The notes beneath the pieces are model-generated. The model did not search any database, was not told where the DNA came from, and saw only the letters and a program-made list of their open reading frames with translations. 25,558 nt of DNA from Saccoglossus kowalevskii (taxonomy: Eukaryota > Hemichordata > Enteropneusta > Harrimaniidae). Made by a program: the position numbers and the translations under genes. Shown piece after piece: positions 1 to 22,104 of the stretch; within the stretch, counting starts at the first letter, position 1; each line of letters starts with the position of its first letter. The stretch spans positions 18,661 to 44,218 of the forward strand of contig NW_003112473.1 in the NCBI RefSeq assembly GCF_000003605.2, given 5' to 3'.

Positions 1-2186
1 ATTTACAATATGTTGCTCATATATGTTGTCTTTTATAGATATTCGGATTTTTGGAATGGCTTCTTTTGATGAATGTAATACCGGTGTTACTGTTTTTTGT
101 TTCTCAGATATTATTTTTCCATCCAAGTATTGACATAGACTATCGGAAACCGCATCTTTAAAGTTATCTGCTTCAATAAAACCATCAAGACTAGAATCAC
201 TGCTAATGTCAGTAACATCTTGTGAATAATCTGCAAACTTCATAGGTTTCAGTCTGAAATATTTATGAACAAGGTTCATATGCCGTCTTAAACCACTTGA
301 CTTACGAAATATCCTTTGGCACATTGTACATTTATGGTTCTTAGGAGATTTTGAGTGATCATTTTGATCAACTGTTGCATTTGGATTTGTGCATGGAGAT
401 TTTACCTCTTCTGAGCCATCATTATCTGTGTGCTTCATGTTCATATGCCTCTGTAAATCAGTTTCATGAATAAAAGTGATTTTACATTTATCACATTTGT
501 GTGGTCTAAATCCGGAATGCAGTTTTTCATGTTTTCTCCAACCATCTAATGTTGAAAACTTATTATCACAATATGTACAACTGTACAGCTTATCTCCACT
601 ATGCATCAGAAAATGTCTGTCTAGTGCTGCTTTACATAAGAATTGTCGGGGACATTCGGGGCAATTAATAATCTCTTGATTGGTGTGTGAACTCATGTGT
701 TCAACTAAATATTTGTGAGATTTGAGAAGTTGTCCACAAATTTTGCAAGGATATAGTGGTTTATGATCACCAACTTCATCGTCAACATCTTCTTCATTAA
801 ACAACATGGCACTATCTTTCTTGTTTTGTTTCTCATGGTACACTGCACTTCGCAGTTTGCGTGAATTTGGTAATTCATTTTCCTGAACATTTATACTATT
901 GCATGTAGTATTTGGCAATGTCCTATTATGAATTTGTCTCCTGGAACCGATATCTCTGTTACAAACTTTTTCATTTTGTTCTGCGATTTTCATCTTTCTT
1001 GACTTTCCTGAAAGGTTTTTAAATTTGTCTTCAACATGATGCACAAAATAGTGTCTTTTAAGACTGGCGCGATGTTCAACAGCACATGGACACAACTGGC
1101 ATTTGAGATATGCCTTCCTTCTTTTGCCCCTCACCTGCTGCCTAAGAAATGTCTCATCAATAGCAAATTGTTTAAAACTTGAAAAAATAATGGGTTTTCC
1201 TGCTTCATCTCGCTGTATTGGCAAATAAGCTTTGGGAAAATTATGTTTCCTGAAACTTCCTTTCTTGAATATCACTATTTCATTTGTATTGTATTTGCTC
1301 GTTTTCATCTGTGTATCAGCCCTTTCAGTGGTGGCTTCTTTTATAGCATTGCAGTGGTTTTCTTTTCTTCCCACAATATATCCATCCCCACTACAGTTAG
1401 AATTAGGCAAAGCAAATGCATCAATCTCAGCTTGTTTGACAGTACTATTTTCTTTACTTTTAATCATTTGTCCATCAGTTGAATCAGCGTTTCCTAAACA
1501 TCGATTCTCAAGGATATTTATACCAGGGTCACCAGTTTGTTCAAAGTCATATTTAGAGATTTCATGAACTGTGTCTACATTGTCTTTCGATATTACTGTT
1601 TCATTTGGAAGACCATGTTCTGTAGAAGACTCACAATCACAATCCATCTGAAAATCAGTCTTTGTCTGCTTCACCATGCAAGTTCCACCTTCTCTGTTGG
1701 TATTAAAGCCATATTTAGACTTAGCCGAATCCAGTGTATACAGCCTTTCTTTCAATTCTGATGTACAGACATTTCTTTCAGTCAGAGAAAGATTATCATC
1801 CTGGTACCTGGGTGCGAGGTCACTAATATGTTGCTCAGTGTGGTTCTTGGCCATACCAATATCTAAGCCATCAACTTCCTTTTTTTTAGTTTCTTCTCTA
1901 AAGTCATCCACAAACAGAAATGTAGATGTAACAAATGTATTCTTAGACATTATTTCATCATGTTGACTGGCATCCCCTTCTGACAGGTCTCCCTGCATAT
2001 ATTCATAAGTAGTAGTGTCTGTATCACTAATGGATTGATTGTCATCATTTTCTATTTCATTTTGGCCAACAGCAAGTAGATCGGTTTCTTTATCAAGACT
2101 TATTTTATCATCAATAAAATTCTTGGCTGCTGACATACTGATATTCAATTCACTGGTTGATTTCTCAATTTCTTCAAGAATAGTCC
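1..2186 (-). CDS. PRDM-family gene, C2H2 zinc-finger exon (partial, runs off the left edge)
   Basis: Reading the minus strand from 2186, the frame is open for about 728 codons to the window edge. The start is a splice acceptor (T-rich tract then AACAG, at 2187-2189) whose phase continues the frame of the donor at 2377. The first ~360 residues are acidic and low in complexity, like the preceding exon. Then come six C2H2 fingers. Finger 1 (1039-1101, CQLC...HYFVH) is isolated. Fingers 2 to 5 (685-747, 601-663, 517-579, 430-495) are in tandem with short linkers. Finger 6 (265-330) lies about 33 residues further on. Fingers 5 and 6 use H-x4-H spacing. Linkers such as HSGDKLY and HSGFRPH resemble the Kruppel TGEKPY linker. 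C2H2 arrays bind DNA, so this is the likely DNA-binding end of the nuclear protein. No stop codon is visible, so the 3' end and any further fingers lie outside. The assignment to C2H2 fingers is firm. The link to the PR exons rests on splice phase and orientation. Confidence 0.9.
430..753 (-). other. Tandem block of four C2H2 zinc fingers
   Basis: Four consecutive fingers are visible in the minus-strand translation, each with C-x2-C, a 12-residue spacer and H-x3/4-H: YPCKIC...HMSSH, NCPEC...HFLMH, YSCTYC...HEKLH and HKCDKC...HMNMKH. The ~28-residue periodicity and intact ligands indicate a working DNA-reading module of roughly 12 bp. The target sequence cannot be stated from this alone. Confidence 0.92.
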
Positions 2187-2376
2187 CTGTTAGTTAAAAA
2201 AATAAAAATGACATGATGAAACAGTTTTACAACACTGAATTCCGTCAGGGAGTTTTTTCTCTCATCAAGTTTTTTTATATATAAATATATCATATGCTAC
2301 ATGCATTTCACTGGATGTATTTCCTTTGAACTTTCCGTTCAAAACAAACACATTTTTATAATGATTCATGATTTAC
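2187..2376 (-). other. Intron between the giant exon and the zinc-finger exon
   Basis: The donor at the right end reads AAAG|GTAAAT (exon ends at 2377). The acceptor at the left end reads TTTTTTTAACTAACAG|GGACTA (exon starts at 2186). The joined codon G|GG keeps the frame (…FSKG-TILEEIEK…). The intron is 190 bp, AT-rich, and includes a short TATATA run near 2275-2290. Nothing else is seen in it. Confidence 0.85.
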
Positions 2377-3433
2377 CTTTGCTGAAAGATGTTAACTTTA
2401 CTTTATTCTTTCTGTTGAAACCATATATGTTATCATCCTTACATGGCTGAGGAATAGTTGATCCACTCATGTCACTGCACCCATTGGTCTTCAATAACCT
2501 CAGGGATTCAGTCAGGGTAGTGATATCATCACTTGAAACACTGTGTCCACCATACATGTCTTCTGAGTCAAAATACAGAGCCTGTTTCTCACTGTTGGTT
2601 GTACTTCTGTTCCAAACCTTTACCCTTTCTATACCATTTGCATCCAAACCTACATCTTCATTGACAATTGATTTCTGTTGATCCTTAGATTTGATATCTA
2701 CTGTTGCTTGGCAAGTCCTGCCTGAACTATCTTCTGATGTAGCTTCAGCATCCTCACCAGAGAACACATTTTGTTCAGAACTATGACTCCTACTAGTCTT
2801 GGTTTGGTGGAATGTCTCATCAGGGTGTTCAGCATTGTACATCTTTTTAATGTTGTCACTTGTATTTTCCATACAATTCTCTCCTATTGCTTCTGTATCA
2901 TCACTTTTCACTGCCTCATTACCTGCCTTATCTTCAGAAATCTGCACATGTGCCTCACTTGTATGGATTAGACTTTTAACTCCATGGTCTACTTGTTCTA
3001 CTTCTGTTTTCTTCTTTGATGATTGTACTTCACCACTATCATTTTCTGTTGTCATGTTTGACAGCCCAGAATAACCTGTATTGCTCTCCTTGGTCACTCC
3101 CAATGCATGGAGTTTAGATTTCTGTTTTGAAAAATTAATCACAATTTCTGTTCCATCGATACTTCTTTTTGATGGATCCAACATGCTATCCCGCAAAACC
3201 TGTTTATCATCTGCTACCAATTTCACTGTTTCCAGTAACTGCTCCTCTGTTTCGGCTTCAATGAATGCTACATTCTTAATTGTAGGTGTAGCTTTGTCTG
3301 AAATCTTTCCATCACTAACTTCCATGCATCTCCACTTTGATAGATTTATCACAGTGTCTTCCAAACCACATTCTGCCATTTTTTCAGTATTGTGTTTTAG
3401 TTCGCCTCTCCCAGGAGTTGCTAATCTATATTG
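2377..3433 (-). CDS. PRDM-family gene, 3' part of the giant exon after a frame break
   Basis: This minus-strand frame is open from the stop at 3434-3436 down to the donor at 2377, about 350 codons. It is one base out of register with the preceding 8.2-kb open frame. It is best read as the same exon, because it continues the acidic, Ser/Thr/Lys-rich composition and carries two more copies of the V-I-N-L-S type motif (3338-3352 and 3128-3142) that recur just upstream. It could instead start at the Met at 3377-3379, but no promoter or splice acceptor supports a separate gene. At the 3' end the donor AAAG|GTAAAT leads into the 190-bp intron in phase with the zinc-finger exon. No folded domain is recognised; the region looks disordered. 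Confidence 0.8.
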
Positions 3434-5838
3434 TCAATTGGTGCTACGACCAATTTATTATCATCTTCTGTATCTACCCTTTTTGAAAGATTTATCACAA
3501 AGCTTTCAAATTGCTCTTGGCCACTATTCACCTCTTTATCAGTAGTCAATATTTGTCCTTCCATATTGTCAAATGCCGCTTCATTGCTTAAACACTCAGT
3601 GTTATTCTTGACATTCTGAATATTATAACCATCATTACCATTATCTACATAATTATGAAGTTTATCTGTTACCACTTGTGGAGGGTTACCTAATATACTG
3701 TCATTACTTGAGTTATTTAAAAGTTCGCCATCTTCTTTCACAACTATTGGTAGCATCACAGTGTCCCTCTTTATAAGTTGGCCATCTTCTGGTTGTTCTG
3801 TGGACGTTTTTACCTCCATACTACAAAATGTTGTTTTGATGATGTTTACTGATGCATCTGGTACTGTTGACAAGTCCACAACACAATCTTCCATCTTATA
3901 TTGGCCATGTTCTGACATTTCCCCTATTTTATATTTGTCGTTGTGCAATGTATTGTCACTACCATTTACTTGTAATGCTGTCTGTGAGGACTCTGTTTTG
4001 CATAATGCAAGTATCTGTGCATGATTTGTATTCACATTCAGATTTTCTGTATTCTCTTCTATTTTTCTGTTTACTGAATGAACTAAGGAATTGTCGGTAA
4101 TCTGTTCCTCTTGTCTGTTATTAGTTGCTTCGCAAATATATTTTGCTAATTTCTCCTGAATATCTAGTAGTGTTTCATCAAACTTCATTTCATCTCTTGT
4201 TTTTGCTGATGTTTCAATTTTCATAGTGTCATTTAGTGTAGCACTGCTATTCACTGATAGGTCAATCACACCATATTGCTTTATCTTTTCTACTGTTTCT
4301 ATATCCATGCTGCCAAATGAGTCATTGTCCAACACACTCTCTTTCATATGTACCACCTCTGATGATGATGCGCAGTTCGACAGTTCCTTTGAATTACCTT
4401 CATAAGAAGCAGTAATCAGCTCTTCTATCTTCTCATTGCATGATCCCACTTCCATTTTGCAATTGTCTTCACTTTCTGAAAGTCCTATACTGATGTCTTC
4501 AACAGCTTTAATTTGCAACAGATTCTTGTTATCCTCTGCCTCACGTTTACCATTGTTTACTGGTTTGTTGATGGTCTCATCATTTACCTGTACTTCTTTT
4601 GATGTGTCAGGTGTATATTTTGTCAATTGCAATTTATAGTCTCCTGAAGGTTCATCAACAATCTCTTCTACTTCAGTTGTGGATTGTGTTTCCTCTAGTG
4701 CATTTTCGCCAACATCTTTCATCAGCTGATTCTTATTTTTTGTATCTTCCTCTCTTTTATTAGAGCCATCCACTTCCACAGTGTCATTTAATATATTTTC
4801 ATTATCTGTTGTCACTGTTGTTGGTTCTAATTGGTCAACAGCACTTACATACATTGTATGATGGCAAATTTCAGACAGCTCGTCTTTATTCTGTATATGT
4901 TCCACTGTCCTTCTCTTAGATTCATTTATGTTCTCACCCTGCAAAATTGAGTTGACCAAATTATTGTTGCTGCCATCATTTATCTGAACTATCACTGAAG
5001 ATGCATGTTCTGTAAAATCTCTCAATGTAATGTCACTGGTTATATCACTTTTCTGCTCATCTTTCATATCCACTGATGCTTCAATATCCATACTGCAATT
5101 GTCTGCTACAGATTTGTCACTGACATTTTTCGCTTCAGCTATCATTTTTGATGGTTTGACAGTTTTTCCTTCTGAGTTAGATGGGTCACTATTATCTGGC
5201 AGTATAGTACATATTAAAAGGTCCTTTCCTATTTCTTTTGCTGTAACACTTTCCATAATGCTGGCATCACTGCTGTTAACTAGTATTTTCGATTCAAACA
5301 TACATTTTGGCAGTTTATGTACATTGCATTCTAATAATTCACCAGGAATCTGATTTTCTGCACTCACTGTTTGTGCTTTCACCTTTTGTGCATATTCCCC
5401 ATTAGGTTTCACAGTTGACAGGTCAATTACACTATAATTCAATTTAGGCTGTCCATCTTCTGATATATTTTGTTCTTCTGGAAGTTCTTCTTTTTTTTCA
5501 TCAGAAGCATCAATTTGAAATGTACAATGCGTTGCTTCATCTGGTGCGTTCTGATGGGAAGTTTTGATTTTGATTTTTTCTGACCAGTCAATCACACTAT
5601 CTTCCAATCTATGATGGCTATCTTCCGACATCTTCAGTCTCTTTGAAACTTTCTCTTTCGTTCTTTCTCCGGATGTGCTGCCTTCCAGTTTTGACCAGTT
5701 GAAAGTACTCACTTCTGTTTCACATTCAGGATTTGTTTTCTGATTTGTTCTTACTTGAGATGTGTCTATATTGTCATTTGTTGGTTTAGCCAATAAATTT
5801 CCAACTTCCAAAATCATTGGCTGTAGCAGGTCAATGAC
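3128..5838 (-). other. Series of eight degenerate V-I-D-L-S type motifs in the acidic region
   Basis: Copies in minus-strand order: VIDLL (5824-5838), VIDWS (5581-5595), VIDLS (5416-5430), VIDLS (4255-4269), VVDLS (3868-3882), VINLS (3484-3498), VINLS (3338-3352) and VINFS (3128-3142). Several share the context S-E-D-G-Q-x-K-[LM]-x-[DY]-[SC] just before the core, so they look like remnants of an older repeat. The core matches the general form of SUMO-interaction motifs (V-I-D-L-T type). It also loosely matches CtBP-binding P-x-D-L-S motifs, although the leading P is V here. The last two copies lie beyond the frame break, which supports one continuous protein. The function is inferred only. 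Confidence 0.6.
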
Positions 5839-8800
5839 ATCACCTTCTGTTTTATATAAAATATCACTTGATATTTCTTCAGTGCTTTCCACATGTTCTA
5901 TATTTTCTTCTAGTAACTTTACTTCCATAGAGACAAATCCTTTGTCAAATACACCATTACTATCATTCAGTTTTTGGTCAGGATCTTCTCTCGTCTCCAC
6001 TACATTCTGCTTTGGCTCGGGAGCTTCTTCCAAAATGGTGTTTTCACTAACATTAATTGCTTTTTCTGATTCATATTTACCACCATCATTATCTGCTGTT
6101 TCCTCAGTTGTCTGTATCTCCTCCTCATCCCTCGCGTATGGGGCTTCTGTATTATTGCTTTTGCCTCCCATGATCATACCTGCTGATAATTCAAGTAGAT
6201 ATGGTCTACTCGACTCATACTCGCATTTTCCATCAATAGCTTCCATTTCCTTACATATACGTTTGTCTAAAGGTTCATATTCTAATGTTAACTGTTCTGT
6301 GATATCTGGTGGACTACTCCCCAATTTACGCCCTTCACTATGTACAATTTCATCTGCACTCTGTGAATCTGCCTGTTGTATATATTGTTCTACAACTCTC
6401 CTAAAAGTATGGTTTGACTCATGCTCCCCTTTATCTGCAGTTCCTTCTTTCATACAGGTGGACACAACATTATGTGTTTGATTTTGGCTGTCTGCTTTTA
6501 ATAATGGGGGTGGTTGCACATTCACTATTCTTTCTCCAATTGTGTAATCAGAGGGCTTAATGCTCATCTTTAGTCTCCCTTCAATACTGGTGATAGAAAT
6601 ATGATGTGGACTGTCACATTCATTTTTTTGTTGATGGACTGATTGGTCGTTACTGATTATGTGTTTGTCACTACAAACTACACTGTGGTTTTTCTCACTT
6701 GTACAGTCATCATCGTTTGTTGGTTTCATTTTTGTTTCCATCACTGTTTTTTGGTTTTCCTGTTTATCAATAGCTGAACTATCATTAGTCCTTTGCTGGT
6801 TTTCTTTGACAACTTTGTTAAATTCCCCATCATTACCAACTCCCGTTGATATCCTTTTGGGCACGTGCATAGTTTTATTTACTGCAGTTTTCTCATAATC
6901 CAGATCCATTTTTCCTACAGAGGTCACTTCTTTGTTTAATTCATACTTGCCAATAGCTAGTTGTGGTTCTCTGACTGTCACTTTTGTTGTGCTACGACCA
7001 CTACAGTATTGCTTAAGTTCACCTTGAACAATAGTGGATATCCTTTCAACAATATCTTTTTCCCCTAAAGTCTTATCCATTGGACATTCTTTTACCACTA
7101 TGGCGCTTAATGCTGTTTCTTTTACTGTACTGTCACATCCTTGTGGATTATTTGATAGTTTATTGTCTTTATAGGCATTGCTGATTACTTGTTTCACAAT
7201 TGTATCATCACCAACACACACTGCATTTTTCGAATTCATAATGTCCATTTCGTCCAAATGATTTAAGTGTTCTTTAGTGTTTACTTCTTGTTCAGTATGA
7301 GATGCTCCTGCTTTTGTAAAGTCATCTCGCACCTGTACAGACTTGTCTGTCTTCCCCGCCCCCATGCAACCATTTGCATTGTATGCAAGACTCGGTATTC
7401 CATTCTTGGTCATCTGCACTTTATCAGAACTTATTTGCTTTTGCCAGACAATCTGTTTTTTTCTATTTTGCGGGGTTTCTTGCCAGCCCTTTGCATCCTC
7501 AATACTCCTTTTGACATTCAATGTTTGCATCGGCTCACAAGTCACGGGTTGGAGAATACCCACTTGCCCAATGACTTTGTCTGTATCATCCCTCTCTGGC
7601 ACTATCCCTGAATTGTATTCAGGACTGTCTTTATTTTTCTTGGCCTCTATGAGACAATCATTTTTATTGTAAGGAACATTCACTGTTCCACCTTTGGTCT
7701 TCTCTTGCTCTTCTTGCAAAACCTTTTCCTTTTTCTCAGTTGCCTGCTTTTTCCCATTTTGTGGGATTTTAAAAACGTCACAATTACTGTTGATATTCTT
7801 TGTCTCTGTATGCTCTACTTCACTAGTCACAGGTTGGAGAATTCCCACTAGCCCAGTGACCCTGTCTGTATCTTCTCTCTTGAGCACTATCCCTGAATTA
7901 TATTCAGGACCATCTTTATTTGTATTGGCCTCTGTTATACTATCATCAGCATTGTATGCAACATTCACTGTTCCATATTTGATTTTCTCTTGCTCTTCTT
8001 GCAGAACCTTTTCCTCTGTTGTCAGCTTTTTCCCATTTGTTAAAGTTTCAAAAACGTCAAGATTACTGTTGATATTCGTTGACTCCATACGTTCTACTTC
8101 ACAGGGCACAGGTTGGAGAATTCCCACATGCCCAATGTCTTTGTATGTATCTTCTCTCTCTAGCACTATCCCTGAATTGTATTCAGAACTGTTTTTATTT
8201 GTCTTAGTCTCTGTTGCAACGTTCATTGATCCATTTTTGATCTTCTCTTGTTCTTCTTGCAAAACCATTTCCTCAGTTGCCTGCTTTTTCTCATTTATTG
8301 GGGTTTTAAAAACGTCAACATCACTGTTGATATTCGTTGTCTCCATACATTCTACTTCACAAGTCACAGGTTGGAGAATTCTCACCTGCCCAATGACTTT
8401 GTCAGTATCTTCTCTCTCTAGCACTATCCCTGAATTGTATTCAGAACTGTCTTTATTTGTCTTGGCCTTTGTTATACTATCATCAGCATTGTATGCAACA
8501 TTCACTGCTCCATTTTTTATCTTTTCTTGCTCTTCTTGCAAAACCTTTTCCTTTTTTTCAGTTGCCTGCTTTTTCCCATTTGTTGGGGTATTAAAAACGT
8601 CAAGATTACTGTTGATATTCGTTGACTCCATACGTTCTACTTCACAAGGCACAGGTTGGAGAATTCCCACATGCCCAATGTCTTTGTATGTATCTTCTTT
8701 CTCTAGCACTATCTCTGAATTATATTCAGAACTGTTTTTATTTGTCTTAGTCTCTGTTGCAACGTTCATTGATTCATTTTTGATCTTCTCTTGTTCTTCT

Positions 8801-11592
8801 TGCAAAACCATTTCCTCAGTTGCCTGCTTTTTCTCATTTATTGGGGTTTTAAAAACATCAACATCACTGTTGATATTCGTTGTCTCCATACATTCTACTT
8901 CACAAGTCACGGGTTGGAGAATTCTCACCTGCCCAATGACTTTGTCAGTATCTTCCCTCTCTAGCACTATCCCTGAATTGTATTCAGAACTGTCTTTATT
9001 TGTCTTGGCCTTTGTTATACTTTCATCAGCATTGTATGCAACATTCACTGCTCCATTTTTTATCTTTTCTTGCTCTTCTTGCAAAACCTTTTCCTTTTTT
9101 TCAGTTGCCTGCTTTTTCCCATTTGTTGGGGTATTAAAAACGTCTAAATTACTGTTGATATTCGTTGTCTCCAAACGTTCTACTTCACAAGTCACAGGTT
9201 GGGGAATTCCCACTTGCCCAGTGACGCTGTCTGTATCTTCTCTCTCTAGCACTATCCCTGAATTGTATTCAGGACTGTCATTAATTGTCTTAGTATCTGT
9301 TGCAAAGTTCATTGTTTCATCTTTGGTCTTCTCTTGCTCTTCTTGCAAAACTATTTCGTTTTGCTCAGTTGCCTGCTTTTTCCCATTTATTGGGGTATTA
9401 AAAACGTCTAAATTACTGTTGATATTCGTTGACTCCATACGTTCTACTTCACAAGGCACAGGTTGGAGAATTCCCACATGCCCAATGTCTTTGTATGTAT
9501 CTTCTCTCTCTAGCACTATCCCTGAATTGTATTCAGAACTGTTTTTATTTGTCTTAGTCTCTGTTGCAACGTTCATTGATCCATTTTTGATCTTCTCTTG
9601 TTCTTCTTGCAAAACCATTTCCTCAGTTGCCTGCTTTTTCTCATTTATTGGGGTTTTAAAAACGTCAACATCACTGTTGATATTCGTTGTCTCCATACAT
9701 TCTACTTCACAAGTCACAGGTTGGAGAATTCTCACCTGCCCAATGACTTTGTCAGTATCTTCCCTCTCTAGCACTATCCCTGAATTGTATTCAGAACTGT
9801 CTTTATTTGTCTTGGCCTTTGTTATACTATCATCAGCATTGTATGCAACATTCACTGCTCCATTTTTTATCTTTTCTTGCTCTTCTTGCAAAACCTTTTC
9901 CTTTTTTTCAGTTGCCTGCTTTTTCCCATTTGTTGGGGTATTAAAAACGTCTAAATTACTGTTGATATTCGTTGTCTCCAAACGTTCTACTTCACAAGTC
10001 ACAGGTTGGGGAATTCCCACTTGCCCAGTGACGCTGTCTGTATCTTCTCTCTCTAGCACTATCCCTGAATTGTATTCAGGACTGTCATTAATTGTCTTAG
10101 TATCTGTTGCAAAGTTCATTGTTTCATCTTTGGTCTTCTCTTGCTCTTCTTGCGAAACTATTTCGTTTTGCTCAGTTGCCTGCTTTTTCCCATTTATTGG
10201 GGTATTAAAAACGTCTAAATTACTGTTGATATTCGTTGTCTCCAAACGTTCTACTCCACAAGTCACTGGTTGGAGAATTCCCTCCTGCCCAATGACTTTG
10301 TCAGTATCTCCCCTCTCTAGCACTATCCCTGAATTGTTTTCAAGACTATCTTTATTTGTATTGGCCTCTGTTAAACTATAATCAGCATTGTATGCATTAC
10401 TCGTTGTTCCATCTTTGATATTTTCTTGCTCTTCTTGCAAAACCTTTTCGGTTTGCTCAGTTGCCTGCTTTTCCCCATTTATTGGGGTATTAAAAACGTC
10501 TAAATTACTGTTGATATTAGTTGTCTCCAAACGTTCTACTTCACAAGTCACAGGTTGGAGAATTCCCACCTGCCCAATGACTTTATCTGTATCTTCTCTC
10601 TCTAGCAGTTTCCCTGAATTGTATGCAGGACTGTCTTTATTTGTATTGGCCTCTGTTAGACTATCATCTGCATTGTATGCAACACTCACTGTTTCATCTT
10701 TGGTCTTCTCTTGCTCTTCTTGCAAAACCTTTTCGTTTTGCTCAGTTGCCTGCTTTTTCCCCTTTGTTGGGGTATTAAAAACGTCTAAATTACTGTTGAT
10801 ATTAGTTGTCTCCAAACGTTCTACTTCACAAGTCACAGGTTGGAGAATTCCCACCTGCCCAACGACTTTGTTTGTATCTTCTCTCTCTAGCACGATCTCT
10901 GAATTGTATTCAAGACTGTCTTTATTTGGCTTATCTAGAGTACCCTGAGTATCTGCATTGGGTAATTCCATCGCATTACAGCCTTTGTGGTTGTCAGGTT
11001 TTGAATCATTAGTACCTGTATTGGAATCAGAGTTTGTTTCCGCCAGGATCTTTAGTCCAGCCTTCCTAGGCAAGTCATTCACTTTGTCTGATGTTCCATT
11101 ACAGGGAACTGATATGTTCTTTCCAACCTTATCTGTGAAAGAGCTTTGCCCAGTCAGTTTCTTTGATATGCTAGACTCTGTGTTTATTACGTCCTGACAT
11201 GTTTCAGCAAATTGTTCTTTCAATGGCTGCTTCAAATCTGCATCTCTCCAAACAGTGGACATTTGATCTAATTGAGTTTCTTTATTTACACATTCTCTCA
11301 TATTGTTCAACGTATATTTCTCATGAGTGTATGTTCTCCCTCTCTTTCTCGGACAATCCTTTTCAGGTGAATTGTCAGTTTTGTCTGTTGTGTTGAGCGC
11401 TTTGTTATTCCTATTTCGTTTCCTGCTTGGTGGTCTGCCTCTTTTCCTGGGTAGATCTGTTGTTGGTTTGCTGCCGATATGTGATGTGGTTTTTTCAACT
11501 GTAGAACTTTCTATTTTATCTACTTCTTCATACTCTGTATATTCCACTGGGATATTATACCAACATAATAATTCTTCATTTGGACTGATGTC
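3421..11592 (-). CDS. PRDM-family gene, giant exon: end of PR domain, AT-hooks, tandem repeats, disordered acidic region
   Basis: The exon begins at an acceptor (GAGCAG|GACATC) and reads DISPNEELLCWYN, the last strand of a PR/SET domain, in phase with the exon at 12868-13023. The same open frame reaches further right to a Met at 11671-11673, but that part is intronic. The exon runs 2,723 codons to a TAG at 3421-3423. Order of elements: PR-domain end (residues 1-15); two basic AT-hook-like motifs (about residues 48-86); thirteen repeats of ~95 residues (about 222-1415); then a long acidic Ser/Thr/Asn/Lys-rich region with spaced V-I-D-L-S type motifs (about 1918-2703). No enzymatic domain is visible after the PR domain. 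PRDM proteins are nuclear transcriptional regulators, and some are histone methyltransferases. Whether this PR domain is active cannot be told. The TAG coincides with a one-base frame break, so it is probably not the true end of the protein. The linker is unusually long for a PRDM protein, and the subfamily could not be assigned. Confidence 0.9.
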   Translation of the reverse strand, partial: DISPNEELLCWYNIPVEYTEYEEVDKIESSTVEKTTSHIGSKPTTDLPRKRGRPPSRKRNRNNKALNTTDKTDNSPEKDCPRKRGRTYTHEKYTLNNMRECVNKETQLDQMSTVWRDADLKQPLKEQFAETCQDVINTESSISKKLTGQSSFTDKVGKNISVPCNGTSDKVNDLPRKAGLKILAETNSDSNTGTNDSKPDNHKGCNAMELPNADTQGTLDKPNKDSLEYNSEIVLEREDTNKVVGQVGILQPVTCEVERLETTNINSNLDVFNTPTKGKKQATEQNEKVLQEEQEKTKDETVSVAYNADDSLTEANTNKDSPAYNSGKLLEREDTDKVIGQVGILQPVTCEVERLETTNINSNLDVFNTPINGEKQATEQTEKVLQEEQENIKDGTTSNAYNADYSLTEANTNKDSLENNSGIVLERGDTDKVIGQEGILQPVTCGVERLETTNINSNLDVFNTPINGKKQATEQNEIVSQEEQEKTKDETMNFATDTKTINDSPEYNSGIVLEREDTDSVTGQVGIPQPVTCEVERLETTNINSNLDVFNTPTNGKKQATEKKEKVLQEEQEKIKNGAVNVAYNADDSITKAKTNKDSSEYNSGIVLEREDTDKVIGQVRILQPVTCEVECMETTNINSDVDVFKTPINEKKQATEEMVLQEEQEKIKNGSMNVATETKTNKNSSEYNSGIVLEREDTYKDIGHVGILQPVPCEVERMESTNINSNLDVFNTPINGKKQATEQNEIVLQEEQEKTKDETMNFATDTKTINDSPEYNSGIVLEREDTDSVTGQVGIPQPVTCEVERLETTNINSNLDVFNTPTNGKKQATEKKEKVLQEEQEKIKNGAVNVAYNADESITKAKTNKDSSEYNSGIVLEREDTDKVIGQVRILQPVTCEVECMETTNINSDVDVFKTPINEKKQATEEMVLQEEQEKIKNESMNVATETKTNKNSSEYNSEIVLEKEDTYKDIGHVGILQPVPCEVERMESTNINSNLDVFNTPTNGKKQATEKKEKVLQEEQEKIKNGAVNVAYNADDSITKAKTNKDSSEYNSGIVLEREDTDKVIGQVRILQPVTCEVECMETTNINSDVDVFKTPINEKKQATEEMVLQEEQEKIKNGSMNVATETKTNKNSSEYNSGIVLEREDTYKDIGHVGILQPVPCEVERMESTNINSNLDVFETLTNGKKLTTEEKVLQEEQEKIKYGTVNVAYNADDSITEANTNKDGPEYNSGIVLKREDTDRVTGLVGILQPVTSEVEHTETKNINSNCDVFKIPQNGKKQATEKKEKVLQEEQEKTKGGTVNVPYNKNDCLIEAKKNKDSPEYNSGIVPERDDTDKVIGQVGILQPVTCEPMQTLNVKRSIEDAKGWQETPQNRKKQIVWQKQISSDKVQMTKNGIPSLAYNANGCMGAGKTDKSVQVRDDFTKAGASHTEQEVNTKEHLNHLDEMDIMNSKNAVCVGDDTIVKQVISNAYKDNKLSNNPQGCDSTVKETALSAIVVKECPMDKTLGEKDIVERISTIVQGELKQYCSGRSTTKVTVREPQLAIGKYELNKEVTSVGKMDLDYEKTAVNKTMHVPKRISTGVGNDGEFNKVVKENQQRTNDSSAIDKQENQKTVMETKMKPTNDDDCTSEKNHSVVCSDKHIISNDQSVHQQKNECDSPHHISITSIEGRLKMSIKPSDYTIGERIVNVQPPPLLKADSQNQTHNVVSTCMKEGTADKGEHESNHTFRRVVEQYIQQADSQSADEIVHSEGRKLGSSPPDITEQLTLEYEPLDKRICKEMEAIDGKCEYESSRPYLLELSAGMIMGGKSNNTEAPYARDEEEIQTTEETADNDGGKYESEKAINVSENTILEEAPEPKQNVVETREDPDQKLNDSNGVFDKGFVSMEVKLLEENIEHVESTEEISSDILYKTEGDVIDLLQPMILEVGNLLAKPTNDNIDTSQVRTNQKTNPECETEVSTFNWSKLEGSTSGERTKEKVSKRLKMSEDSHHRLEDSVIDWSEKIKIKTSHQNAPDEATHCTFQIDASDEKKEELPEEQNISEDGQPKLNYSVIDLSTVKPNGEYAQKVKAQTVSAENQIPGELLECNVHKLPKCMFESKILVNSSDASIMESVTAKEIGKDLLICTILPDNSDPSNSEGKTVKPSKMIAEAKNVSDKSVADNCSMDIEASVDMKDEQKSDITSDITLRDFTEHASSVIVQINDGSNNNLVNSILQGENINESKRRTVEHIQNKDELSEICHHTMYVSAVDQLEPTTVTTDNENILNDTVEVDGSNKREEDTKNKNQLMKDVGENALEETQSTTEVEEIVDEPSGDYKLQLTKYTPDTSKEVQVNDETINKPVNNGKREAEDNKNLLQIKAVEDISIGLSESEDNCKMEVGSCNEKIEELITASYEGNSKELSNCASSSEVVHMKESVLDNDSFGSMDIETVEKIKQYGVIDLSVNSSATLNDTMKIETSAKTRDEMKFDETLLDIQEKLAKYICEATNNRQEEQITDNSLVHSVNRKIEENTENLNVNTNHAQILALCKTESSQTALQVNGSDNTLHNDKYKIGEMSEHGQYKMEDCVVDLSTVPDASVNIIKTTFCSMEVKTSTEQPEDGQLIKRDTVMLPIVVKEDGELLNNSSNDSILGNPPQVVTDKLHNYVDNGNDGYNIQNVKNNTECLSNEAAFDNMEGQILTTDKEVNSGQEQFESFVINLSKRVDTEDDNKLVVAPIDNID
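7350..10926 (-). repeat. In-frame tandem repeat, 13 units of about 95 codons, inside the giant exon
   Basis: Units begin with N-K-[DN]-S near plus positions 10926, 10641, 10356, 10089, 9807, 9549, 9282, 9000, 8742, 8457, 8199, 7920 and 7635. Lengths are 285, 285, 267, 282, 258, 267, 282, 258, 285, 258, 279 and 285 bp, followed by a degenerate last unit. All are multiples of three, so the frame is preserved. Conserved blocks are GIVLEREDTD, GQVGILQPVTCEVER, TNINSNLDVF and KVLQEEQEK. The first block has a hydrophobic core followed by acidic residues, which resembles a SUMO-interaction motif. The EEQEK block could form a short helix. Units 4-5-6 are nearly repeated as 7-8-9, a higher-order duplication of about 807 bp. 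No known domain is recognised. Confidence 0.95.
11335..11451 (-). other. Two AT-hook-like basic motifs
   Basis: Minus-strand translation gives PRKRGRPPSRKRNR at 11410-11451 and PRKRGR at 11335-11352. The first contains the R-G-R-P core of AT-hooks, which insert in the minor groove of AT-rich DNA. The second lacks the P after RGR and is a weaker match. Both would also serve as nuclear localisation signals. They lie directly after the PR domain. Confidence 0.7.
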
Positions 11593-12867
11593 CTGCTCAA
11601 CGAAATACATCAGATCAGTGTTAAATAAATGTATTCCTAATTCAGGATGATAGCTACAATGTGTTGATTTCAATTTTTAAGTATTAAGGTAGAGATGCAG
11701 TTTACGTGACAGGTATTTCAATTAGTTAATTAGGAAACCAAGATGACCTCCCTTGTCCAGTAAAACTATATATTTTCGGAAAGCTTATTGTATGAATTTA
11801 AAAATTGTGTTAGTATTTTTGTATGGACACTGTAGTTTGAAATATACACAAAAATGTGCTTTTTTGGTCAAAAATGATTTAAAAAAAAATTAGCTTCTAA
11901 GCCATGCTTCTGTTTCCTGTCAAAATTGGTTTATGGGTACATCTGTTTACTATGAAGAAAGTGCCGTCTTGAAACCTGTCTACCAGTTATCAATTTTGCA
12001 GGGCAGCAGCTCAAATATCACTACTTCAAGTTTTTGCATAAATTAACACGCAGGCTTGTTGTCTGTACGATTGCTGTAACACTGTTGCTGTAACCCAAAA
12101 CAATGCCCCGACGGCGTTTTGAAGATAAACACATTGTCAATCATTTGTGGAAATTTCAAAACAAAAGGTCAAAGCGTCCAGGAGCTAGTTCTTTGATGTG
12201 GACTAAAAAGAAGCTGAGATAATTGCTAATTTGCATAACAATTCACAGTAAGAAGTTTGCTAATGCTCACATTTAAAACGGCTGTAACAGTTCCAAATTT
12301 AAATGTATAATCGTTATATTAAAAGTTAAATATAGTGCATATTATGGAGATCCCATCATTTCTTTTTTTTACCATGTTTCTTTTTGATTATTTATGTACA
12401 GCCTTGCTAAATCTTGCTAAGCATTCAAAAGAGAGAATGTTTGCACCTGTTATCTACATTTTAAAGTCGTTTTTGAGTCTGTTCCATTATTCACAATTCT
12501 ACAAAATTTTAACAGCTTATAGCTAAGATTGTTTGGACAATAAAAAGAAAAAACAAATTCACTCCCAAGTGCCCACAAACCTGCATCTCTACCTTAAACA
12601 AATATACCACTGTCCATAATTGGAGACATGTATATTGAATGTCACTGCTGTCTATCTTGATGCGTTTCATTTATGCAATTGTGAGTCATACCTACCTTTC
12701 GAAACGGCATTATAGCAATTTTATGTTTAATGTGTTTTTTTATAAAAATCTTCCAGTTACTTTGGTCTACCATCAAATGTGTTGTATACTATAAAGCTAA
12801 GTGTCAAAAACCACTACACTGACAGGGATATTTCAATGAAACTAGCAAAATCATTGTCAAAATTTAC
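11593..12867 (-). other. Intron within the PR domain, hosting a transposon-like element
   Basis: The donor is ATTAAG|GTAAAT at 12868/12867 and the acceptor GAGCAG|GACATC at 11593/11592, both phase 0. Splicing joins IFYKTIK to DISPNEELL, the normal order of PR/SET motifs. Most of the 1,275 bp is taken up by the inverted-repeat element at 11684-12597. The rest is AT-rich with no further feature. Confidence 0.85.
11684..12597. mobile_element. Non-autonomous DNA transposon-like element with 17-nt terminal inverted repeats and TTAA ends
   Basis: The left end TTAAGGTAGAGATGCAG (11684-11700) and the right end at 12581-12597 are perfect reverse complements over 17 nt, 914 bp apart, after which the ends diverge. 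If TTAA is the target-site duplication, the terminal repeat proper is 13 nt. TTAA duplications are typical of piggyBac and Kolobok superfamilies. The interior has no long open frame and is AT-rich, so it would depend on a transposase from elsewhere. It lies about 90 bp upstream of the acceptor of the giant exon. The family is not recognised. A chance 17-nt inverted match at such spacing is unlikely. Confidence 0.7.
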
Positions 12868-13023
12868 CTTAATTGTTTTGTAGAAAATCTGTTTGTTGTG
12901 TTGGACTGCCACCATGTTTTGTTCTTCATAATAACGGGCACCTCTAATATATCTCAGCCAATTAGATGTCCTAGGATCGGATGCATCTATACAGAATAAC
13001 CGCCTTCCTGATGGCCCCTTTAT
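12868..13023 (-). CDS. PRDM-family gene, central PR-domain exon
   Basis: The exon encodes 52 residues, flanked by acceptor CTTTCAG|ATAAAG and donor ATTAAG|GTAAAT, both phase 0. It carries the core PR/SET signatures: C-I-D-A-S-D-P, N-W-L-R-Y-I, E-E-Q-N-M-V-A-V-Q and Q-I-F-Y-K-T-I-K. These match the conserved W-[LM]-R-Y-[IV] and EQN-hydrophobic blocks of PRDM proteins. The PR domain is a divergent SET fold that lacks the canonical SET N-H-S motif, and here R-G-A-R occupies the comparable place. The CIDASDP block recalls PRDM2-type PR domains, but that is from memory and not enough to assign a subfamily. Confidence 0.93.
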
Positions 13024-14355: not shown

Positions 14356-14459
14356 CTCCCATGAATAGTACGAATCAGATTTTTCCGTCAGTTTCTTCTT
14401 AACTCCTTCATATGGTCCAAAGCGACTATCTGCTTTGATAAAATGTTTTGCCCATATAC
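14356..14459 (-). CDS. PRDM-family gene, N-terminal PR-domain exon (RFGPYEG)
   Basis: This 104-nt exon lies between acceptor TTTTTTAG|GTATAT and donor GAG|GTAAGT. It starts in phase 1 (the codon G|GT gives glycine) and ends in phase 0. It encodes I-W-A-K-H-F-I, then R-F-G-P-Y-E-G and a Lys-rich stretch ending S-Y-Y-S-W-E. The G-[IV]-W-A…RFGPYEG block is the most recognisable N-terminal signature of PRDM PR domains. Confidence 0.95.
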
Positions 14460-14929: not shown

Positions 14930-15016
14930 CAATTTTATTGAACTCTACACTTGATGGTTTTAGTTCACAATAGGGAGGGACAGTCATGTATGGTGGCACT
15001 ATCTCCATTATGAACA
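14930..15016 (-). CDS. PRDM-family gene, exon at the start of the PR domain (possible first coding exon)
   Basis: The 87-nt exon runs from acceptor TTGTTTGTAG|TGTTCATA to donor TTG|GTAAGT (phase 1). An in-frame ATG at 15006-15008 has A at -3 and G at +4, a good initiation context, and is followed by E-I-V-P-P-Y. The C-terminal part reads S-S-V-E-F-N-K-I-G, continuing into I-W-A-K of the next exon, as expected at the start of a PR domain. The frame is also open upstream of the ATG (F-I, then the acceptor), so the exon could instead be internal, entered with one base of a codon already supplied. Which of the two is right cannot be decided here. Confidence 0.85.
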
Positions 15017-15099: not shown

Positions 15100-16830
15100 T
15101 GCTTGCAGTGGGTGGTGGGTTGACTAGGGTTACAGGGGGAAGCAGACAATAATAAATGTGTTGATACTGAGTGCCCCAGTACAGGGTGGGCGGGCCATAG
15201 TTTACAAGGGTGGGACTGAAACAGGTTTGTTACAAAGTGCCCTAATACAGGTTGGGTGGGCAAAGGTTTAGACGGATGGTGACTAAAACATGTTTGTTGC
15301 AAAGTGTCCTCATAGAGGGTTGATGAGCGAGGATTTACACGGGTGGGAACCAAGTAAGTTTGTTATAAAGTGCATTAATACATGGTGGGTAGACAAGGAT
15401 TTACAATGGTGGGGGCTAAAACTCTTTTTTTTAACTGTTCAAATACAGTGTAGCTTGGCAATAGTTCACAATGATGGGAACTAAATTATGTTTAATACAA
15501 AATGTCCCAATTAAATACAAGGATTTACAAAGGTGGGAACTATAATAAGTTTTCTACTAAGTTCCCCCAACCAGGATGGGTGGCCAAGGGTTTACATGGT
15601 TGGACTCTAAAATAGGTTAGTTACAAAGTGCCTGATAAAAAGGTTGGTTGGGCTAGGGTTCACAATAATGGAGACTAAAACAGGTTAGTTATGAGTGCCA
15701 CAATATAGTATAGGTGGGCCAGAGTTTACAAGGGTGGGGAATAGAGTAAGCGTGTTACAAAGTGCCCAAATTCAGATTGCGTAGGCAAGGGTTTACAAGA
15801 ATGGGAACTAAATAAGTGTGTTACAAAGTATCCCAATACAGAATGGATAGGTAAGTGTTTACCATGGTGGGGATTATAATAAATTTGTTATAAAGTGCCA
15901 CAATACAGGATGGGTGCACACAGGTTTCCAAGGTTGGGGTCTATAATAAGCTTAATGTTTGTTACAAAGTGTCCCAATATGGGGTAGGTAAGGTTTATAA
16001 GGGTGAGGACTAAACCAAGTTTGTTATAAAGTACCCCAATACAGGATGAGTGGACAAGGGTCTACAAGGATGGGGACTAAATAAGTTTGTTACAAAGAGC
16101 CCAATACAGGGTTGGTGGACAATGGTTTGCAAGAGTGGGACTATAATAAGTTTGTTATAAAGTACCCAAATTCAGGGTGGGTGGGCAAGGGTTTACAAGG
16201 ATGGGGACTCAATAAATTTGTTACAAAGAGCCCCAATACTGGATGGGTGGAGAAGGGTTTGCAAGAGTGGGACTAAAATAAGTTTGTTATAAAGTACCCA
16301 AATACAGGGTGGGTGGGCAAGGGTTTACAAGGATGGGGACTCAATAAGTTTGTTACAAAGAGCCCCAATACAGGATGGATGGAAAAGGGTTTGCAAAAGT
16401 GGGAACTATAATAAGTTTGTTATAAAGTACCCAAATACAGGGTGGGTGGGCAAGGGTTTACAAGGATGGGGACTAATTAGGTTTGTTACAAAGAGCCCCA
16501 ATACAGGATGGATGGGTGGAGAAGGGTTTGCAAGAGTTGGACTATAATAAGTTTGTTAAAAAATGTCCAATTACAGGGTGGGTAAGCAAGGGTTTACAAT
16601 GATGGGGACTCAATAAATTTGTTACAAAGAGCCTCAATACATGATTGGTGGACAAGGGTTTGTAATAGTTGAACTATAATAAACCTATTTTTGTTACAAA
16701 AGTGTCACGATACAGGATGGGTAAGGGTTTATAAGGGTGGGGAATAAACTAAGTTTGTTAAAAAATGTTCAAATACAGGTTGGGTGGGCAAGGGTTTGAA
16801 AGAATGCAGACTCAAAAAGTTCAAGTATGC
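15100..16830. repeat. Minisatellite array, about 67-bp unit, roughly 25 copies
   Basis: A unit of about 67 bp recurs from about 15100 to 16810. Its core elements are GTTTGTTACAAAG, CCCAATACAGG, GGTGGGTGGGCAAGGGTTTA and GGGACTAAAATAAG. Divergence is high at the left end and lower around 16080-16560. In that part two unit types alternate (…GAGCCCCAATACAGGATGG… and …GTACCCAAATACAGGGTGG…), giving a higher-order period of about 134 bp. The G-rich strand is the plus strand. Unit length is not a multiple of three and no long open frame follows it. It lies upstream of the PR exons, probably in an intron or the 5' region of the gene. Confidence 0.93.
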
Positions 16831-18433
16831 CATGCAGTGAGTGAGGGGTAGAAATTAAATTGAATTTCTCACTTAGTATGCCCTGAATAGGATTTGCAAT
16901 GGCAGAGTGACACTGTATCAGAAATATTTTGTTAAGCTGTTTTAAGCTAAATTAAGCCAGTCAACATGCTGCTTCCTTACTAACCTTTTGAATTATCATA
17001 GATATAAAACATGATTCTAAATCAATATGTCCAATGATTGGTTAAACTTGAGTTAATTAATATATCTATTGAATGTGCAGGAAAGCTAGTGAAAGTATGA
17101 ATTGTGAAATCATAGAAGAACTAACACTGTACAATTTTTAACTCTATGAATTTCATTGTTGTTTTACAGACGATTAAAATAAATTTTTAGAAGACTAATA
17201 AGTTTCAATGATTGATTGTAGTTATAATAAATAATTTTGATGAAATTGTTAATAATCTCACGATGGCTGACACAGGAACCTAATTGATTTTGGATTCAGT
17301 ATGTAATATCTGATTAATATTGTTAATTTCAAATATTATCAAATGATTGTTAATAAATTATTTATACACATCAATCCAATAACATTGTCATTTGGTTAAA
17401 GAAATAACAAATTTGCATACTGAATGAAATGAATAGACATGGACAATAAGAGCTCCAACACACAACTATGGATTATATATATATATAACAGAAAAGTTAG
17501 ACAGATTGGTTAAAAGATACTGACACTTTTTATTGCAGTTTTGCAAGATTTTATATTATTCCCATCATTATTGGTGAAAATTTTTATATTTTCACCCTTT
17601 CATTGTGAGAATTATAAGTATGTTAAAAAATTTATGATAATTTATTAATTTTCTCACTTTCATTGAGAATAATATCAAATCTTACTAAAATCAACAGATA
17701 ATAACAGCTTCTAGAGACGTTTTTACAAATAGTCAGACGAGATAGCAAAAAATACATAAAAATATGACAGTCTTTTACCAAAAAATTCAGATATCAAATT
17801 AACCACTATGACCAATAATGAAACTATTTCTCAAAGACAGACACAAGCATCATTAAAAAATACTTCAAATACACATGTACGTTCACAAGACACTTACCAC
17901 TAAATGTGACTGTTAAATATAATAAGAACAGTCACCCTCCAATACATACAAATTGTATGTAACGCACAATCCCCTGTTTATTAAATGGAACAGATTTTAA
18001 AGTAACAGAAGCTTAATACTATGCTTAATCGATACGACCTTGAATTTGCAGCTTGTCACAGCTTGCTCAAGCTAATCATGTTTAATAGAATAACAACCAA
18101 AAATAATACTATGATAAAACTCATGTGGAATTTAACATGAACAAAAGAAATGTACGTAAAGAATGATACTGTGGTTTTCACAAATGAGGATTATACTACA
18201 TGCAAATAATATGAGAGTAATATCATAAAGAAACAAAATCACTGTAAAAGGAAATTGCAAAATGGAATAATGGTTAAAATTGTGAATTTAAAATAAATTC
18301 CTACATTTGATAGAAACTGTGTTAGATATATCTACGTGTATAAGCTGAAAATTTCACTATAAACCTCTGAGTGCCCTAATTTTTATTCCATTGAAATTTG
18401 TTTATGTAATTTTTTATGTAATTTTAAGTAAAT
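16831..18433. other. AT-rich single-copy spacer, no gene seen
   Basis: This 1.6-kb stretch separates two minisatellites. It is very AT-rich and includes a short (TA)n run at about 17475-17487. I looked on the minus strand for an exon linking 22803-22914 to 15016 and found GT/AG pairs but none with PRDM-like coding content. Confidence 0.6.
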
Positions 18434-21290
18434 GTGCAATGCATTATGGGAGAGAAATTAAAGTTTTGCATCTATTGAGCATTTTACTGAGCAGATGTGC
18501 AATGCATTATGGGAGAGAAATTCAAGTTTTACATCTACTGGGCAAATGTGCAGTGCATTATGGAAGAGAAATTCAAGTTTTGCATCTACTGAGCATGGCA
18601 CTAAACAGATGGGCAAAGCATTATGGGAGAGAAATTCAAGTTTTGCATATACTGAGCATGGCACTAAACAGATGGGCAAAGCATTATGGAAGAGAAATTC
18701 AAGTTTTGCATCTACTGAGCATGGCACCAAACAGATGGGCAAGGCATTATGGGAGAGAAATTTAAGTTTTCCATCTACTTAGCATGGCACTAAACAGATG
18801 TGCAATGCATTATGGAAGAGAAATTCAAGTTTTGCATTCATTGAGCATTTTACTGAGCAGATGTGCAAAGCATTATGGGAGAGAAATTCAAGTTTTGCAT
18901 CTACTGAGCATGGCACTAAACAGATGTGCAATGCATTATGGGAAGAAATTCAAGTTTTGCATGTGCAATGCATTATAGGAAAGAAATGCAAGTTTTGCAT
19001 CTACTGAGCATGGCACTAAACAGATGTGCAAAGCATTATGGGAGAGAAATTCAAGTTTTGCATCTACTGAGCATGGCACTAAACAGATTTGCAATGCATT
19101 ATTTAAGAGAAATTCAAGTTTTGCAGCTATTGAGCATTTTACTGAGCAGATGTGCAAAGCATTATGGGAGAGAAATTCAAGTTTTGCATCTACTTAGCAT
19201 GGCACTAAACAGATGTGCAATGCATTATGGGAGAGAAATTAAATTTTTCCATCTACTGAGCATTTTACTGAGCAGATGTGCAAAGCATTATGGGAGAGAA
19301 ATTCAAGTTTTGCATCTACTTAGCATGGCACTAAACAGATGTGCAATGCATTATGGGAGAGAAATTCAAGTTTTGCATCTACTGAGCATGGCACTAAACA
19401 GATGTGCAATGCATTATGGTAGAGAAATTCAAGTTTTGCATATACTGAGCATTTTACTGAGCAGATGTGCAAAGCATTATGGGAGAGAAATTCAAGTTTT
19501 GCATCTACTTAGCATGGCACTAAACAGATGTGCAATGCATTATAGGAGAGAAATGCAAGTTTTCCATCTACTGAGCATGGCACTAAACAGATGAGCAATG
19601 CATTATTTAAGAGAAATTCAAGTTTTGCATTTATTGAGCATTTTACTGAGCAGATGTGCAAAGCATTATGGGAGAGAAATCCAAGTTTTGCATCTACTTA
19701 GCATGGCACTAAACAGATGTGCAATGCATTATGAGAGAGAAATTTAAGTTTTCCATCTACTGAGCATGGCACTAAACAGATTTGCAATGCATTATTTAAG
19801 AGAAATTCAAGTTTTGCATTTATTGAGCATTTTACTGAGCAGATGTGCAAAGCATTATGGAAGAGAAATTCAAGTTTTGCATCTACTTAGCATGGCACTA
19901 AACAGATGGGCAAAGCACTATGGGAGAGAAATTAAATGTTTGCATCTATTGAGCATTTTACTGAGCAGATGTGCAATGCATTATGGGAGAGAAATTCAAG
20001 TTTTCCATCTACTGAGCATAGCACTAAACAGATGTGCAATGCATTATGGGAGAGAAATTCAAGTTTTGCATATGTTGAGCATTTTACTAAGCAGATATGC
20101 AATGCATTATGAGAGAGAAATTTAAGTTTTCCATCTACTGAGTATGGCACTAAACAGATTTGCAATGCATTATTTAAGAGAAATTCAAGTTTTGCATTTA
20201 TTGAGCATTTTACTGAGCAGATGTGCAAAGCATTATGGGAGAGAAATTCAAGTTTTGCATCTACTTAGCATGGCACTAAACAGATTTGCAATGCATTATT
20301 TAAGAGAAATTCAAGTTTTGCATTTATTGAGCATTTTACTGAGCAGATGTGCAAAGCATTATGGGAGAGAAATTCAAGTTTTGCATCTACTTAGCATGGC
20401 ACTAAACAGATTTGCAATGCATTATTTAAGAGAAATTCAAGTTTTGCATTTATTGAGCATTTTACTGAGCAGATGTGCAAAGCATTATGGAAGAGAAATT
20501 CAAGTTTTGCATCTACTGAGCATAACACTAAACAGATGGGCAAGGCATATGGGAGAGAAATTCAAGTTTTGCATATACTGAGCATGGCACTGAGCAGATG
20601 GGCAAAGCATTATGGGAGAGAAATTAAATGTTTGCATCTATTGAGCATTTTACTGAGCAGACGTGCATAGCATTATGGAGAGAAATTCAAGTTTTGCATA
20701 TGTTGAGCATTTTACTAAGCAGATATGCAATGCATTATGGAAGAGAAATTCAAGTTTTGCATCTACTGAGCATAGCACTAAACAGATGGGCAAGGCATAT
20801 GGGAGAGAAATTCAAGTTTTGCATATACTGAGCATGGCACTGAGCAGATGGGCAATGCATTATGGAAGAGAAATTCAAGTTTTGCATTTATTAAGCATTT
20901 TACTGAGCAGATGTGCAAAGCATTATGGGAGAGCAATTCAAGTTCACAGATGGGCAATGCATTATGGGTGGAAATTTCAAGTTGTGCATCTACTGAGCAA
21001 ATGTGCAATGCATTATGGGTGTGAATTCCATGTTTTGTTTCTACTGGGCATAACACTCAGCAGATGAGCAATGCATTATGGGTGAGAAAATCAAGTTTTG
21101 CATCTTGGGCATTTCACTGAGCAGATATGCAATGCATTATGGGAGAAAAATTCAAGTTTTGCATCTACTGAACAAACAAGCAATACATAATGGAAAGAAT
21201 TTCAAGTTTTGCATCTACGGATCATGTCACTGAGAATAAACTCAATGCACGATGGGAGTTGCATCTTGAATTTCGCATCTACAAACTGCA
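18434..21290. repeat. Minisatellite array, 63-bp unit, roughly 45 copies
   Basis: The unit is 63 bp with core GTGCAATGCATTATGGGAG, then AGAAATTCAAGTTTTGCAT and CTACTGAGC. Two subtypes interleave: one with CATGGCACTAAACAGATG and one with CATTTTACTGAGCAGATG. Copies are very similar from 18434 to about 20930 and degrade toward 21290. Because 63 is 21 codons, stop-free frames extend over several units on both strands (for example 222 codons at 18926-19594 plus, repeating M-A-L-N-R-C-A-M-H-Y-G-R). That is a by-product of the period and not evidence of coding. At least nine units match an 18-nt Staf/ZNF143-type binding consensus. Confidence 0.96.
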
Positions 21291-21565: not shown

Positions 21566-22104
21566 CAAATTTTGCACTACTGAGCATGTTACTGCACATA
21601 TATGCAATGCATCATGGTAAAATTGGTATTATGTACTACTGAGCATGTTACCGAACATATGTGCAATGCATCATGGTAAAATTGGTATTTTGCACTACTG
21701 AGCATGTTACTCTACATATATGCAATGCATCATGGTAAAATTGGTATTATGCACTACTGAGCATGTTACTCTACATATATGCAATGCATCATGGTAAAAT
21801 TGGTATTTTGCACTACTGAGCATGTTACTGCACATATATGCAATGCATCATGGGAAAACTGGTATTATGCACTACTGAGTATCTTACTGAACATATATGC
21901 AAAGCATCATGGGATTTTTTTGATTTTTTAATTTTGCACCACTGAGCATGTTACTGCACATATGTACAATGCATCATGGTAAAATTGGTATTTTGCACTA
22001 CTGAGCATGTTACCGCACATATATGCAATGCATCATGGGAAATCTGGTATTATGCACTACTAAGCATGTTACTACACATATATGCAATGCATCATGGGAA
22101 TTTT
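21566..22104. repeat. Minisatellite array, about 60-bp unit, about nine copies
   Basis: The unit is 59-62 bp: GCACTACTGAGCATGTTACT, then CACATATATGCAATGCATCA and TGGTAAAATTGGTATT. It shares the order CTACTGAGCAT…AC…TGCAATGCATnATGG…TTTTGCA with the 63-bp array, so both probably derive from one ancestral monomer. Copies near 21915 and 22085 carry a diverged T-rich insertion. Confidence 0.92.

Follow-up and report, generated by a model that had tools for sequence, protein, structure and literature searches.

The window analysed here, a stretch of 25,558 nucleotides of Saccoglossus kowalevskii DNA, carries on its minus strand a PRDM2-like gene in which an in-frame tandem array of 13 units encodes 1,192 residues of the linker that separates the PR domain from the zinc fingers. 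We consider it probable that this gene is an orthologue or close paralogue of PRDM2 (RIZ) with a coding satellite in its linker, and that unequal exchange has expanded a disordered linker, with the expansion being tolerated. The exon/intron model was drawn by eye from gt/ag borders and the sequence alone, and comprises the following features:

14930-15016, minus strand: putative exon in which the start codon probably lies (MEIVPPYMTV...), bounded by gt/ag borders in the model drawn by eye; further coding exons may lie upstream
14356-14459, minus strand: PR domain exon (GIWAKHFIKADSRFGPYEG...YYSWE), with gt/ag borders and a PF21549 match across the joined exons
12868-13023, minus strand: PR domain exon (IKGPSGRRLFCIDASDP...IFYKTIK), with gt/ag borders and a PF21549 match
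3421-11592, minus strand: giant exon with the end of the PR domain, linker, the 13-unit array and more linker; stop codon at 3421-3423
2377-3433, minus strand: linker of the same type in a different frame (open reading frame 2366-3433, 355 codons), VINLS-like motifs included
1-2186, minus strand: exon that encodes acidic linker and six or more C2H2 patterns, continuing past the window edge

The PR domain is assembled from the three upstream exons and the start of the giant exon (11592), which lies in a minus-strand open reading frame of 2,751 codons without a stop (3421-11676). The joined domain matches the Pfam family PRDM2_PR (PF21549) with 127 bits (cut-off 27) and SET with 44 bits. Among 15 PDB sequences found at E≤0.001, human PRDM2 (2qpw) is the best, with 105.8 bits (E 2e-29), and MECOM reaches 96.0 bits (E 2.1e-26). 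We assign the domain to PRDM2 over MECOM because of this 10-bit gap in the PDB scores, the PF21549 model having been run on this PR domain alone. C-terminal of the PR domain, C2H2 fingers are present as Pfam zf-C2H2 matches and six C2H2 patterns before the gene leaves the window. The initial annotation had described a PRDM protein, which these matches bear out and sharpen: judged by its domains, the gene appears to be PRDM2-like.

With the reading frames joined across a frame change at 3421-3433, the linker from the PR domain to the fingers spans ~3,400 residues, or ~2,200 when the array is subtracted; the exon lengths, summed across the same frame change, give a protein of ~3,900 residues inside the window, truncated at its edge. 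At 3421-3433 of the minus strand, the frame of the giant exon stops while similar linker goes on in another frame. The break may reflect a true frameshift, an erroneous base or a small intron that went unrecognised; a search by eye for a small intron bridging 3421-3433 gave no convincing donor/acceptor pair. Upstream of the first coding exon found, there are three non-coding satellites (15170-16797, 18425-21167 and 21568-22197) with units near 66, 63 and 59 bp, the 63-bp satellite comprising more than 31 copies. The consensus units of the 63- and 59-bp satellites resemble each other by eye, and may be related.

We confirmed that the array is real in this assembly. Tandem Repeats Finder reports a period of 285 with 11.0 copies at 7957-10933 (score 3413), and alignment of the units extends the array to 13 head-to-tail copies in the open frame, 12 of them good and the thirteenth decaying after its first third:

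7336-10911, minus strand: in-frame tandem array of 13 units, 1,192 residues (Tandem Repeats Finder, unit alignment)
7336-7620, minus strand: unit 13, a decayed edge unit resembling the others mainly over its first third (unit alignment)

Units 1 to 12 measure 285, 285, 264, 285, 258, 264, 285, 258, 285, 258, 279 and 285 bp, every one a multiple of three, and the array thus has the in-frame tandem copies of multiple-of-three length that characterize a coding VNTR; the end of unit 13 was set by us at 285 bp. An earlier description of 13 in-frame units of 258-285 bp, together about 1,190 residues, therefore agrees with ours, the lengths holding for units 1-12. Its ends (7350-10926) lie 14-15 bp from those given here, which reflects only the choice of unit phase. 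In composition the array has 12.8% E, 10.0% T, 9.9% N, 9.5% K, 1.2% F and 0.2% W, and it carries a net charge of -84.

At the nucleotide level, units 1-12 are 81.1-99.6% identical to each other, with unit 12 at 81.1-86.3% to units 1-11, and unit 13 is 63.7-65.2% identical to the other units. Unequal exchange is expected to leave a diverged array edge and a near-identical centre. The 3’ edge (units 12 and 13) is diverged and lies beside a centre of near-identical units; the units of the 5’ edge (1 and 2) show no clear excess of divergence over the interior. The closest pairs are units 4 and 7 (99.6%), 5 and 8 (98.8%), 5 and 10 (99.6%) and 8 and 10 (98.4%), so that units 5, 8 and 10 are indeed near copies of each other, as had been noticed at the outset. 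The proposed near-identity of units 4-5-6 with 7-8-9 is borne out for the first two pairs, but not for units 6 and 9, which are only 89.8% identical overall and agree in their first parts alone: counted per segment of ~20 codons, they differ at 3, 0, 4, 12 and 15 positions. In its last two segments, unit 9 shows 0 and 1 differences from unit 7, and the view that it is a hybrid of units 6 and 7 is therefore right. Units 3 and 6 have mainly their second halves in common (8, 5, 0, 1 and 0 differences per segment).

This pattern is accounted for by a higher-order structure of copied blocks. Three tracts exceeded the threshold in an ungapped self-scan covering offsets of 200-2,599: 827 bp at offset 807 (8 mismatches, 99.03% identity), 540 bp at offset 1350 (2 mismatches) and 552 bp at offset 543 (9 mismatches). 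They correspond to two copies of the 827-bp tract and three copies of a block of ~540 bp, which we call block X:

9412-10238, minus strand: 827-bp tract, copy 1, from mid unit 3 to mid unit 6; 8 mismatches against 8605-9431
8605-9431, minus strand: 827-bp tract, copy 2, from mid unit 6 to mid unit 9 (ungapped scan)
9412-9951, minus strand: block X, copy 1, with the end of unit 4, unit 5 and the start of unit 6 (ungapped scan)
8593-9144, minus strand: block X, copy 2, with the end of unit 7, unit 8 and the start of unit 9; 9 mismatches in 552 bp against 8050-8601
8062-8601, minus strand: block X, copy 3, with the end of unit 9, unit 10 and the start of unit 11; 2 mismatches in 540 bp against copy 1

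Copies 1 and 2 of block X are both preceded by the same stretch (the end of unit 3 or 6 and the start of unit 4 or 7). Copies 2 and 3 meet in unit 9, which therefore looks like a hybrid of units 6 and 7. A blast self-comparison, with looser ends, extends the first tract to 1,006 bp at 97.2% identity. We infer from this arrangement at least two block duplications later than an older amplification of single units. The recent and repeated unequal exchange suggested in the initial annotation is consistent with these duplications, and would be the likely mechanism behind them. A recombination hot spot was considered as well, as the block ends fall at 0.39-0.48 of the unit, and was rejected: local conservation there is unexceptional, and no stretch longer than 12 nt is invariant in 12 units.

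The copies could in part be an artefact of assembly, with two haplotypes or a mis-resolved repeat placed in tandem, such that the 827-bp copies at 99.0% identity are alleles or over-expanded units. A difference of about 1% between alleles is common in many outbred animals, and an erroneous base could account for the frame break at 3421-3433 of this gene. However, there are three copies of block X instead of two, with offsets of 543, 807 and 1350 bp, and units 1, 2, 3, 11 and 12 differ from their neighbours far beyond the allelic level. We hold an artefact of this kind to be quite unlikely: the count of 13 units could be off, but that diverged units form an array here is hardly in doubt.

Expansion of the linker by unequal exchange, the explanation that we favour, would have begun with tandem duplication of a 95-codon stretch, the copies of which then diverged by roughly 9-19%. 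Later, recombination out of register, either as unequal crossover or as conversion among the units, would have duplicated mid-array blocks of ~540 and ~807 bp. As the monomer is a multiple of three and free of stops, every exchange of units preserves the frame. Mispairing of unit copies at recombination may thus change the length of the linker in frame-keeping steps with little functional effect, frame-breaking exchanges and indels would be removed, and a longer linker would be the main effect of the repeats. It is plausible that the copy number varies between individuals.

For the coding status of the array, we derived a codon table from the remainder of this open reading frame, outside the repeats, so that composition is common to training set and array. 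With this table the sense frame of the array scores +0.448 bits per codon, against -0.388 to -0.956 in the five other frames. The three plus-strand frames of an intron stretch score -0.514 to -0.713, and the finger exon +0.217 bits per codon. Only the sense frame of the array scores positive, and the minus frame is therefore likely to be the coding frame, as far as codon usage can tell. A plus-strand open reading frame at 7673-10381 (902 aa) was considered as an antisense gene and rejected with a codon score of -0.417; it is a by-product of the repeat, and is long because the consensus unit, read round, is stop-free in one antisense frame and is repeated.

Constraint on residues is not visible between the units, either in pN/pS across the six frames or in synonymous counts. 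The 66 pairs formed by units 1-12 have a pooled pN/pS of 0.73 (0.49-1.15 by bootstrap over codons), and with units 7-10 omitted, the remaining 8 units give 0.78 (0.54-1.15). On 258 gap-free columns the coding frame has 0.72, compared with 0.71, 0.71, 0.74, 0.81 and 0.83 in the other five frames. Variable sites are spread flatly over the codon positions (29/33/32 in 86 columns), and of 117 alleles derived relative to the consensus, 30 are synonymous (29.3 expected) and 86 non-synonymous (82.0 expected). At this power, a ratio of 0.73 is compatible with moderate constraint. The initial annotation had named a dN/dS near 1, together with stop codons in other alleles, as evidence that would speak against its reading, and the first half of this comes close to what we find, as the bootstrap interval includes 1.

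Stop-creating changes alone look scarcer than expected. On the consensus background, 1 derived allele creates a stop in the coding frame, where 5.68 would be expected (P 0.018, uncorrected and for one of six frames). Two non-coding frames lean the same way (2 against 4.95, P 0.11; 5 against 7.99, P 0.18), and the deficit is absent in three of the other five frames (P 0.54, 0.92 and 0.98). The selection for an open frame proposed earlier is thus matched by the depletion of stops, but weakly, given the uncorrected P value and a pN/pS like that of the other frames. From these counts, the frame has probably been kept open while the residues drifted, and the array behaves as a coding satellite whose frame appears to be maintained and whose residues appear little constrained.

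Residues that evolve as though unconstrained would also be expected if the array were not translated, being either spliced out or part of a pseudogene, and the end of the giant exon frame at 3421, with similar linker continuing in another frame, points in the same direction. Against this stand the 2,751 open codons, codon usage that is coding-like in the sense frame only, the somewhat depleted stops, and the gt/ag exon borders around a recognisable PR domain and fingers. We regard an untranslated array as very improbable.

The unit has no known domain that could be recognized: Pfam gives no match below E 0.0065 and none common to more than 3 of the 13 units, and a unit profile finds 0 PDB sequences at E up to 1. 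The fraction of disorder-promoting residues in the array is 0.73 and that of aromatics 0.034. By the charge-hydropathy rule the array falls on the disordered side, as do all six segments tried, zinc fingers and PR tail included, and the rule therefore does not discriminate. From its composition, the array is predicted to be a disordered linker. An origin of the unit in the linker stretch ‘VIDLLQPMILEVGNL’, which blastp matches with unit 12 (E 0.001, composition correction off), was rejected: the unit profile reaches no more than 5.1 bits at this stretch, a score equalled or exceeded by 8 of 499 reported shuffles (500 made).

The PRDM2 linker carries a motif that binds RB, of the IxCxE kind in human. 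A loose scan for IxCxE-type motifs found five matches in the joined reading frames: units 5, 8 and 10 each have V-E-C-M-E, the linker has VVCSD, and the fifth match lies within a finger. None of them is a clear counterpart of the RB-binding motif. The loosely LxCxE-like V-E-C-M-E, carried by unit 5 (9535-9792), unit 8 (8728-8985) and unit 10 (8185-8442), is probably there by chance. Elsewhere, the non-repeat linker contains seven V-I-D-L-S-like motifs at 3128-5595 of the minus strand (VIDLS and VINLS twice each, VVDLS, VIDWS and VINFS), which we take to resemble SUMO-interaction or CtBP motifs and treat as putative. In shuffled joined reading frames the pattern, which was written after the motifs had been seen, occurs 0.14 times on average and at most 3 times (2,000 shuffles); the core [DN]LS is less striking, with 8 seen against a shuffle mean of 2.7 and a maximum of 9.

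Within the units, a T-P site followed by lysines is present in 11 of the 13 and could be functional, and the first 46 residues are net acidic in all 13 (-3 to -7), the remainder ranging from -6 to +5. These features would suit a functional multivalent module, in which each unit contributes a phosphorylatable T-P site and an uneven charge, and copy number tunes how the protein clusters on chromatin, as reported for the disordered repeats of Ki-67. In Ki-67, phosphorylation of these repeats is reported to form charge blocks and to promote phase separation (PMC9106583). Yet the T-P site is missing from units 11 and 12, the charge contrast is small and missing from several units, constraint on residues between units is not detectable, and no Ki-67-type family is among the Pfam matches. 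We consider such a module unlikely. On present sequence evidence, we see no role for the repeats beyond adding length to a floppy linker.

If copy number varies, the array would supply naturally graded linker lengths in a conserved chromatin regulator, with which the importance of linker length and valency for PRDM2 could be examined. If the array is neutral, it would be an example of a nuclear regulator that tolerates a coding satellite, whereas long coding repeats are described as prevalent in surface proteins (PMC3899988).

The protein resembles PRDM2/RIZ1 in its PRDM2-type PR domain, long linker and downstream C2H2 fingers. It differs in size: published lengths are 1,718 residues for human RIZ1 (PMC12384398) and 1,969 aa with 11 fingers for PRDM2 of the clam Mulinia lateralis (PMC10451705, Table 3), whereas here ~3,900 residues, within the window, across the frame change and cut by the edge, include the array of 1,192. 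The initial annotation knew of no PRDM protein with such a linker array; among the top papers listed by full-text searches, no title or abstract opening mentions one, which is weak evidence of absence. We give little probability to the further-reaching idea of a PRDM2 lineage in which this histone-methylation regulator has evolved a fast-turning, copy-number-variable disordered linker module, in which individuals would differ in protein reach or valency and which would be a second PRDM coding satellite beside the PRDM9 fingers, acting on linker length and not on the DNA target.

The finger array of PRDM9 turns over by unequal exchange. Like that coding minisatellite, for which rapid turnover is described (e.g. 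PMC3890296), the array is an in-frame tandem repeat in a PRDM gene; the PRDM9 unit is a DNA-binding finger under positive selection at its recognition positions (PMC3890296). In the present gene, by contrast, the repeated unit is a 95-residue piece of linker without a known domain. Ki-67 repeats are roughly 120 residues long and carry T-P sites. The likeness to Ki-67 lies in the many repeats of a predicted nuclear protein, those of Ki-67 being phosphorylated and disordered (PMC9106583), but the Pfam and PDB searches found no sequence relationship. A prevalence of minisatellites is reported for genes whose products are extracellular or sit on the cell surface (PMC3899988). The array shares with the VNTRs of mucins the build of one large exon from variable coding repeats (PMC13345508). 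Mucins are secreted or surface proteins, whereas the protein described here is a predicted nuclear regulator.
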